Shown here in pieces: positions 17,399 to 20,587 of a stretch of 64,000 nt of DNA (the first letter of the stretch is position 1; each line of letters starts with the position of its first letter). This DNA is from an uncultured Pelagibacteraceae bacterium. Its GTDB lineage: Bacteria; Pseudomonadota; Alphaproteobacteria; Pelagibacterales; Pelagibacteraceae. The stretch lies in NCBI GenBank assembly GCA_902580135.1, contig CACHJL010000001.1:38424-102423 (forward strand), in the 5' to 3' direction. Under the pieces are notes generated by a model. It saw only the letters and a list, made by a program, of their open reading frames with translations, was not told the DNA's origin and did no database searches. The translations under genes and the position numbers were made by a program.

Positions 17399-17968
17399 TT
17401 ATTTTTTCTGCTCTGCTTTTTCTTTTAATTGTTCTTTTTTTTTTTCGTCTTTTTCAGGAGCTTTTTTTTGAGCAGGTTTAGCTTCTGCTTTTGGTGCCTC
17501 TGCTTTAGCTTCTGCTTTTGGCGCCTCTTCAATTTTTTCTTCCGTTGCAGGCATTACATTTTCTTCGGTAACCTGCTGAATTTTTGTCTCAACATCTATA
17601 CCAATTTTCTTTTTAATTTTTTCAGCTATTCTTGCAGACTTTCCTGTTCTATCTCTCAAATAATATAATTTTGCACGTCTAACTTTTCCTGATCTAATTA
17701 CTTTAATAGTATCTACTATAGGACTATATAATGCAAAAGTTCTTTCAACTCCTTCACCAAAAGAAATTTTTCTTACAGTAAAAGAAGAATTAATATCTCT
17801 ATTTTTTTTTGCTATGCAAACACCTTCGAAGTATTGAATTCTATCTCTTTTTCCCTCTGTAATTCTAACTCCAACTTTTATAATATCCCCAGGAAAGAAG
17901 TCTGGATGCTTTCTTTCTGAAATTATTTTTTTAACGTTGGATTGATTTATTTCTTCTATTGTTTTCAT
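17399..17968 (-). CDS. rplS: 50S ribosomal protein L19 with extended Ala/Glu/Lys-rich C-terminus
   Basis: [34 protein letters not shown]...[18 protein letters not shown]; tail [23 protein letters not shown]. Confidence 0.96.
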
Positions 17969-17969
17969 T

Positions 17970-18656
17970 TTAATTTTTTTTATATTTTTGCCATAAATCT
18001 GGTCTTCGGTCGCGTGTTATAGCCTCAGATTGGGATAAACGCCAGTCTTTAATTTTGGCATGATCACCCGATAATAGAACATCTGGTACACCTTTATCTT
18101 CCCAAATTTGAGGCTTGGTATACTGAGGATATTCTAAAAGTCCATTCTCAAAACTCTCTTCTTCAGAAGAATTTTCGTTTCCTAAAACACCTGGAAGAAA
18201 TCTTAAAATTGCATCAAGAATAACAAAAGTTGCTACTTCTCCTCCTGATAAAATAAAGTCACCTATACTAACTTCTTCTATATCCCTACTTTGAATTATT
18301 CTTTCATCAATACCTTCAAAATGACCACATATAAAATTTATAGTTTTTTCATGTGAAAGCTCTTTAGCATATTGGTGATCAAATAATCTTCCTTTGGGAC
18401 TTAAATAAATTATTTTTTCTTTTTTCTTAATATTATCATCTAAAGATTTGGCCAAGACATCAGCTTTTATTAACATTCCATTTCCACCTCCATAAGGAGT
18501 GTCATCAACTGTCTTATGCTTATCAAGTGAATAATCTCTTATATTTACTGTTTCTAAATTCCAAATTTTTTCTTTCATAGCTTTTCCAAATAAACCTTTA
18601 ATCAAATAGCCCGGGAAGTATTCTGGATATAATGTAAATATTCGAGACAAAAACAT
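17970..18656 (-). CDS. trmD: tRNA (guanine-N1)-methyltransferase
   Basis: [45 protein letters not shown]. Confidence 0.97.
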
Positions 18657-19055
18657 TTATTTTTTTTCTTCTTTAGGTGCTTCTGCTTTAGCTTCTTCTT
18701 TAGGTGCTTCTGCTTTAGCTTCTTCTTTAGGTGCTTCTGATTCTCCTTCTTTTTTTCTATTTTTTTTAGGAATTGCTTTTTGAGGATTATTACCTTTGGC
18801 TGGCATAGGCATTATTTCTTTTTCACCTAAAATTCTTGCTACTCTGGTTGTAGGTCTGGCTCCTTGGCCTAACCAATATTTGATTCTTTCAATATCTAGT
18901 CCTATTCTTTCTTTTTTATCTTTTGGTAGCAATGGATTAAAAAATCCTAATTTTTCTATAAATCTTCCATCTCTGGGAAACCTACTATCTGCAACTACAA
19001 TTTTGTAAACGGGTCTTTTTTTTGTTCCACCCATTGATAACCTCATTTTTAACAT
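18657..19055 (-). CDS. rpsP: 30S ribosomal protein S16 with repetitive C-terminal extension
   Basis: [41 protein letters not shown]; tail (KAEAPKEEA)n. Confidence 0.97.
18668..18740. repeat. 27-bp tandem repeat (about 2.7 copies) in the S16 C-terminal tail
   Basis: cttctttaggtgcttctgctttagctt repeated at 18668, 18695 and (partial) 18722. Confidence 0.9.
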
Positions 19056-19071: not shown

Positions 19072-20430
19072 TTATTTAAGTTGATTAAAAAGTTCAGGCG
19101 GAATTCCTTTATCTGCCATTCCTTTCATATTTCCTTTAGACATCTTTTTCATCATTTCAGACATCATTTTAAATTGTTTTAACAATTTATTGATCGTAGC
19201 TACATCAGTACCAGAGCCACTAGCAATTCTTTTTTTTCTAGATCCATCAATTATTTTAGGATTTTCTCTTTCTTTTTTTGTCATTGATAAAATTACAGCT
19301 TCATTTTGAATAATAATTTTTTCATCAACACCTGCTTGATCCATTTGAGATTTAATTTTTGAAACGCCGGGAAGAAAAGACATTATACCTTCTATGCCTC
19401 CCATTTTTTTCATTTGTCTAAGCTGTGAAAGATAATCTTCTAATGAAAACTGGCCTTTTTTTAAATTGTCTTCTGTTTTTTTTAAATTTTCTTGGTCTAA
19501 ATCTTCAGAGGCTTTTTCAACAAGAGAAACTATATCTCCCATACCTAATAATCTATTTGCTATTCTATCAGGATAAAAAACCTCAAAATTTTCTATTTTT
19601 TCACCAACACCTAAAAATTTGATTGGAACATCAGCAACATATTTCATACTTAATGCTGCACCACCTCTACCATCACCATCTGATCTTGTAAGAACAATTC
19701 CTGTTAAATTAACTGTGTTTTTAAATTCTTTTGCTACATTAGCCGCAACTTGTCCTGTTAATGAATCTGCCACCAATATTGTCTCTGATGGATTAATTAT
19801 GCTTTCAATTTGTTTGATTTCATTCATCATTTGAAAATCTATTTGAGTTCTTCCCGCTGTATCAAACAAAATTACTTCTGATCCATTTAAATTTGCAGCA
19901 CTTATTGCTCTTCTACAAATATCTGCTGGAACTTGTCCTTCTATTGCTGGTAAAGTTAAAATATTATTTTGTTCTCCTAATAATCTTAATTGTTCTTGGG
20001 CTGCTGGTCTATAAACATCAAGACTAGCCATCATTACTTTTTTTTTATTATTTTTTTCTAAAAATCTTGCTAATTTTGCTGTTGTTGTTGTTTTTCCAGA
20101 TCCTTGAAGTCCAACTAGCATAATAGGCACTGGGGGTACTGCATTTAATTGAATATCTGAAGTTTTATCTCCTAGAAAGGAGACTAGCTCGTCATAAACA
20201 ATTTTGACCACCATTTGTCCTGGTGATGTTGAGCGAACTATTTCTTGTCCTAAAGCCTTTGGTTTAACTCTATTGATAAATTCTTTTACAACTTCAAGAG
20301 ATACATCTGCTTCTAGAAGCGCAAGTCTAATACTTTTTAAACCTTCATCTACCTGATTTTCATCTAAGGAAGGTGCTTTTTTTAAAGAAGAAAATATTTC
20401 TTCAAATTTATTCGTTAAATTTTCAAACAT
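19072..20430 (-). CDS. ffh: signal recognition particle protein Ffh (start revised to [11 protein letters not shown])
   Basis: SRP54: [39 protein letters not shown]; track start at 20511 adds 27 non-homologous residues from a structured leader. Confidence 0.95.
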
Positions 20431-20533
20431 AATTTTACACAGCAAGTATCGCACCAGTGGGCGAACCCTCGCTGACTGGTGTCGATCTCTTTGTTTCCAA
20501 AGACACCGCAAAATGCTGTATTTGCGGAAATTG
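20431..20533 (-). ncRNA. Candidate structured 5' leader / cis-regulatory RNA of ffh (hairpins plus pseudoknot)
   Basis: Minus strand: CCGCAAA-TACAGCAT-TTTGCGG; CTTTG-GAAA-CAAAG; CACCAGT-CAGCGA-GGG-TTCG-CCC-ACTGGTG; loop ACAGCA pairs with TGCTGT ending 8 nt before the ATG. Confidence 0.75.
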
Positions 20534-20539
20534 CGATAA

Positions 20540-20565
20540 ACTATAATAGAGGTTCAAAAAGTCAA
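20540..20565 (-). promoter_or_regulatory. Possible sigma70-like promoter for the ffh leader
   Basis: Minus strand TTGACT ... TATAGT, short 14-nt spacer. Confidence 0.35.
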
Positions 20566-20587
20566 TAAATAAGTTAAATAACTATAT

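Follow-up and report, generated by a model that had tools for sequence, protein, structure and literature searches.

The closest described relative of the RNA studied here is the ffh motif (RF01793), first reported in 2009 from the gap between dapF and ffh of Candidatus Pelagibacter ubique and from many Alphaproteobacteria (PMC2704228). Its authors drew it as one bulged hairpin, saw no resemblance to the part of 4.5S RNA that Ffh binds and remarked that control of ffh, whether at transcription or at translation, had not been described; its transcript was detected in marine metatranscriptomes (PMC2704228). In S. meliloti a 115-nt RNA, Sm5/SmelC778, is expressed from the dapF-ffh gap (PMC2573895, PMC2873474). 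Expression of the ffh-motif RNA has also been reported for M. huakuii (PMC5596092), and an expressed "ffH leader RNA" for Bartonella bacilliformis (PMC7717549).

The window, that is the whole stretch of 64,000 nucleotides analysed here, carries the same element. Rfam cmscan placed RF01793 at 20444-20496 on the minus strand with 58.2 bits (cut-off 35), upstream of ffh as in the described motif. The window element also agrees with the published description in its bulged hairpin, C-G first pair, covarying stem and two opposed conserved C residues in an internal loop. The leader element of ffh is the already known alphaproteobacterial motif, and the novelty considered possible in a first-pass annotation of this DNA is ruled out by the match. 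Within the same family 128 of 147 genomes carried RF01793, as did 133 of 148 in the order and 48 of 191 in the class, but not one of 14 controls. A further family, probably Rhodobacteraceae (assigned from named loci), carried it in 57 of 61 genomes, and ffh lies downstream of the element in 145 of 147 Rhodobacterales loci.

The leader heads an ffh-rpsP-trmD-rplS operon (Table 1). NCBIfam matches bear out this operon and place dapF upstream of ffh in divergent orientation; operon and ffh start (MFENL, ATG at 20430, minus strand) are as the first-pass annotation had them. Many bacteria encode rimM between rpsP and trmD. It is not found at that place in the operon (window 18656-18657), and RimM was missing from all 17 genomes of the same genus that were searched, near-complete ones included, while being present in other families of the same order and class. 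S16 and L19 both extend past their family domains in repetitive Glu/Lys/Ala-rich C-terminal tails. In sister family f148 (loci L316, L324, L329, L330 and L331) the apparent ffh start is GTG or TTG, not ATG. The lack of a Shine-Dalgarno (SD) sequence before ffh, remarked on earlier, is a weak argument: only 6 of the 57 window ORFs of at least 120 aa carry an SD-like 4-mer before the ATG, against 4.3 in shuffles, so that its absence from ffh tells little. SD-poor starts look like the apparent rule in this genome.

Table 1. Positions of the ffh leader elements and of the operon genes in the window
Feature	Position	Strand	Basis
Promoter-like region: TTGACT box followed, about 14 nt on, by a TATAGTTT box	20534..20571	-	conserved box; directly upstream of hairpin 1
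Hairpin 1, CCGCAAA / TTTGCGG, loop TACAGCAT (8 nt)	20506..20527	-	swap tests, SAR11 and Rhodobacteraceae
ATACAGCA, hairpin 1 strand predicted to pair with the tail in the alternative fold	20514..20521	-	MFE; duplex prediction
Hairpin 2, TCTTTG-GAAA-CAAAGA, 6 bp	20488..20503	-	both-sided changes, 5/6 pairs; swap tests
Hairpin 2 outer extension, CGGT (20505-20508) with ATCG (20483-20486)	20483..20508	-	MFE prediction
Hairpin 3 (RF01793 core), CACCAGT/ACTGGTG, CA/CC internal loop, GCGA-GGGT-TCGC	20452..20481	-	Rfam and covariation
Tail TGCTGTGT, 7-14 nt before ATG, predicted partner of 20514-20521 in the alternative fold	20437..20444	-	MFE of 103-nt transcript; genus-swap test
ffh, first gene of the operon	19072..20430	-	TIGR00959, 568 bits
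rpsP (S16)	18657..19055	-	TIGR00002
trmD	17970..18656	-	NF000648
rplS (L19)	17399..17968	-	TIGR01024

The box of the promoter-like region is conserved in SAR11 leaders, and a TTGAC box occurs in 29 of 30 Rhodobacteraceae genera at a near-constant distance from the RNA. A simple sigma-70 scan made no call at this region because of its short spacer. We estimate that transcription would start at about 20530-20535.

Leaders were gathered from SAR11 (88), from other families of the class (about 45) and from Rhodobacterales (147). The window leader folds better than its shuffles (z -4.1 for 20431-20533, z -4.7 for 20425-20545; 0 of 200 shuffles as good). The earlier claim of a structured leader transcribed from the minus strand is supported. 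Pairing was assessed by a swap test, in which each 5' arm (or strand) was paired with a partner from another genus and own pairing was compared with swapped pairing. Hairpin 1 was tested by anchored arms, since the MAFFT alignment misplaced its 5' arm. Its own arms scored 0.988 in SAR11, against a swapped mean of 0.928 and maximum of 0.980, and 0.943 in Rhodobacteraceae, against 0.889 and 0.914 (1000 swaps). Genus swaps in SAR11 reduced the pairing of hairpin 1, hairpin 2 and the lower part of hairpin 3; in 30 loci from separate genomes, probably Rhodobacteraceae, none of 1000 swaps reached the own pairing for any of the three hairpins. In the SAR11 alignment both-sided changes were seen in 5 of 6 pairs of hairpin 2 and 2 of 11 of hairpin 3, all 617 cells were paired, and the covariation score was 0.215 versus 0.099 in shuffles. 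Covariation was found, then, in all three of the stems proposed at first. The Rfam and published models hold hairpin 3 only. Judged by this comparison of arms, hairpins 1 and 2 are parts of the element though left out of the Rfam model, because own-arm pairing beats swapped pairing in SAR11 and in probable Rhodobacteraceae. Elsewhere in the class, hairpin 2 occurs commonly and hairpin 1 varies more.

Hairpin 1 proved to be exactly as first drawn. Hairpin 2 is present, with 6 bp, but its GAAA loop is not conserved. The lower stem of hairpin 3 also stood, but its tip did not: the GGG-UUCG-CCC tip with a CAGCGA bulge gives way to GCGA-GGGU-UCGC over a 2x2 internal loop (CA/CC). Relatives with tip loops such as UAU or GAAU are unable to form the former, and all 31 rows of the SAR11 alignment have the same GCGA/UCGC; the UUCG tetraloop was not supported. 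Within the internal loop the C-C opposition is kept, next to A-C here and next to C-G, G-C or U-A elsewhere. Hairpin 1 and the predicted outer extension of hairpin 2 draw on the same GG and so compete. In all 31 SAR11 rows the GGU/AUC of the extension is paired, though with almost no variation; equivalents are GGUACC/GGUGUC in sister family f148 and GGUCCC/GGGAUC in Rhodobacteraceae. A possible GGUGUC/GACACC antiterminator pairing, spotted by eye in the window, is not kept in other lineages and was discarded.

The minimum free energy (MFE) structure of the 103-nt transcript (-37.5 kcal/mol) differs from the three-hairpin fold. In it ATACAGCA is paired with TGCTGTGT, hairpin 1 has opened and CGGU/AUCG adds to the length of hairpin 2. 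The helix between 5' strand and tail is nested, not knotted, and is mutually exclusive with hairpin 1. For the window, the predicted energies are -31.8 kcal/mol for hairpin 1 with a free tail (fold A) and -37.5 kcal/mol for the alternative (fold B), single-sequence folding energies of this kind being within model error. Genus means of the B-A difference ranged from +1.5 to -10.5. The own difference was -4.0 versus -1.4 with shuffled tails, and 16% of single shuffles were as low.

The swap test was applied to the same pairing, taking as 5' strand the 5' arm and loop of hairpin 1 together with the 8 nt that precede this hairpin, and as tail the sequence up to the ATG. Over 14 genera own pairing was -9.80 and swapped pairing -8.08 (z -3.4, 0.001 of swaps as good), and with three genera of a second family (17 in all) -10.1 and -8.2 kcal/mol (z -3.7, 0.0003 of swaps); these swap probabilities are to be multiplied by about six, several region pairs having been tried before this one. 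Controls with a reversed tail, a reversed 5' strand, a shuffled tail, the ffh coding start or the -35 region gave |z| up to 1.7. Complementing both sides without reversal gave z -1.9, but this control cannot count as independent because the complementarity is preserved. Taken alone, narrower 5' windows showed no clear signal (z -1.1), and therefore the support stems largely from the extreme 5' end of the leader, whose presence in the transcript we infer from the predicted start site.

Individual lineages illustrate the pairing. In L003 UAUUCCCGCAAAA pairs with UUUUUGUUGGAGUA and in L319 UGUUUUCCGCAG with CUGCUGGAAAAUAG, the predicted folds of both containing 12-13 bp of 5' strand/tail helix, and L001 has a long helix of -18 kcal/mol. 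The pairing is weak or absent in genera g2, g4, g10 and g241, and its register shifts between lineages. On this view the 5' arm of hairpin 1 would have a second, imperfect partner in UGYUGG, the conserved motif of the tail. Comparison shows, within the reach of predicted pairing energies, that in Pelagibacterales the 5' strand and the tail before the start are complementary to each other within individual lineages. The pairing was not seen in Rhodobacteraceae (z 0.1), where the ffh ATG lies at a median of 72 nt from hairpin 3, and the predicted switch with its competing nested helix is probably restricted to Pelagibacterales.

The explanation that we favour, at somewhat under even confidence, is that the ffh-motif leader of the ffh-rpsP-trmD-rplS operon regulates in cis, as a 5' UTR that is about 100 nt long, has three hairpins and is predicted to switch between two folds. 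In fold A hairpins 1, 2 and 3 would be formed and the tail free, so that ffh could be translated. In fold B the 5' strand and the tail would be paired and the start region covered, and ffh would be repressed; hairpin 2 would be lengthened using the bases released by hairpin 1, and hairpin 3 retained. Hairpin 3, with its invariant C-C mismatch, might act as the receptor for a protein (Ffh or a ribosomal protein of the operon) or for some other signal that sets the balance. In its most specific form, a two-state translational switch in the Pelagibacterales ffh motif in which the 5' end and the 5' strand of hairpin 1 swap partners, the lengthening of hairpin 2 is coupled and hairpin 3 is the receptor, the proposal is possible and is to be held with more reserve. 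The mechanism of the leader is likely to be translational if the predicted folds are a guide.

Alternatively, the RNA could act on the polymerase. Hairpin 3 and the U-rich stretch after it might terminate or pause transcription, yielding an RNA of about 95-115 nt with limited read-through into ffh. The tail keeps a constant distance from hairpin 3 and a variable one from the ATG, as would suit an attenuator. In Rhodobacteraceae, moreover, T makes up 45-50% of the 12 nt that follow hairpin 3, compared with 17-18% further downstream. The 115-nt SmelC778 of S. meliloti ends within 4 nt of a predicted Rho-independent terminator in the dapF-ffh gap (PMC2573895, PMC2873474), a likeness of position in the gap. 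The U tract, however, is interrupted by G and C (it reads GATACTTGCTG in the window, which does not share the T-rich tail of Rhodobacteraceae), in SAR11 its T content does not stand out clearly from the AT-rich sequence around it, and a terminator scan of the window called none at hairpin 3. We consider attenuation at hairpin 3 unlikely and yet a serious rival, mainly through the T-rich tail of Rhodobacteraceae and the short RNA of S. meliloti.

A little less probable is a leader that works through protein binding at hairpin 3 alone, by putative autoregulation by Ffh or by S16/L19, the long-range pairing being incidental. Ffh and ribosomal proteins are RNA binders, and hairpin 3 is the most conserved part of the element. 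Its CA/CC loop occurs in 146 of 147 Rhodobacterales loci, which suggests recognition weakly, many of these loci having been fetched by a pattern that contains CA/CC. Against this reading, neither the 2009 authors (PMC2704228) nor our comparison by eye found a likeness to SRP RNA. Mimicry of SRP RNA was rejected when set beside the genome's own SRP RNA (CCCAGACUUGAAAAAGAGCAAGGG), as the symmetric loop and GNRA-type loop of domain IV were not seen by eye. A search of the assembly for rRNA, meant for a comparison regarding rRNA mimicry, obtained no match.

The tail might also pair with hairpin 1 while the latter stays folded. This was the form in which the first-pass annotation had proposed it, as a pseudoknot between ACAGCA (20514-20519) in the loop and TGCTGT (20439-20444). 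The two are indeed exactly complementary, a 6-bp match that by itself would arise in about 2% of shuffles, and five distinct leaders of the same genus with a CAGCA loop match over 5-7 bp. Conservation of the pseudoknot was not borne out, however. Loop/tail pairing was -3.15 for own and -2.91 for swapped partners over 14 genera, with 31% of swaps as good, and over 17 genera own equalled swapped (z 0.00); it is absent in Rhodobacteraceae. In the one subclade that has the match the loop is a constant CAGCA, so that compensatory changes are lacking. The tail motif is retained in genomes whose hairpin 1 loops cannot pair with it, and the nested alternative fold employs the same letters. We regard the pseudoknot as improbable; what survives of the original idea is a predicted pairing of upstream RNA with the region before the ffh start. 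Very improbable indeed is a trans-acting small RNA lying upstream of ffh by chance, for which the Rfam type (sRNA) and the discrete short RNAs reported from other alphaproteobacteria might speak, since the element precedes ffh in nearly all genomes examined and a single promoter would serve both.

If the two-fold leader is correct, a lineage-specific expression platform would have been added onto an ancient alphaproteobacterial leader, and the signal recognition particle (SRP) would be under the control of a leader RNA, which is not described in the literature that we found. Conservation of the leader across much of the Alphaproteobacteria, its fuller structure and a testable two-fold model in a dominant group of ocean bacteria make the question of control of the Ffh level approachable.

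Among known systems the ffh motif RF01793 shares with the window its gene, hairpin 3 and lineage, having been described from Pelagibacter itself (PMC2704228). Its models contain a single hairpin, and the present analysis enlarges what the database model holds by hairpins 1 and 2 and the pairing of 5' strand and tail. Sm5/SmelC778 resembles the window RNA in its place in the dapF-ffh gap, its direction toward ffh and its similar length (115 nt), and it is by these three features that the two are likened; unlike the window leader, it has been interpreted as an sRNA that has a Rho-independent terminator (PMC2573895, PMC2873474). The L19 leader and the SAR11 rpsB and rpsL motifs are likewise structured leaders of ribosomal-protein operons, and the window leader had no Rfam match to any of them. 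The ffh leader has no known aptamer, ligand or response to temperature of the kind found in SD-sequestering riboswitches and RNA thermometers. If the two-fold model is right, however, the ffh leader would work in the same way as they do, through one strand that takes part either in a hairpin or in a helix covering the start region.
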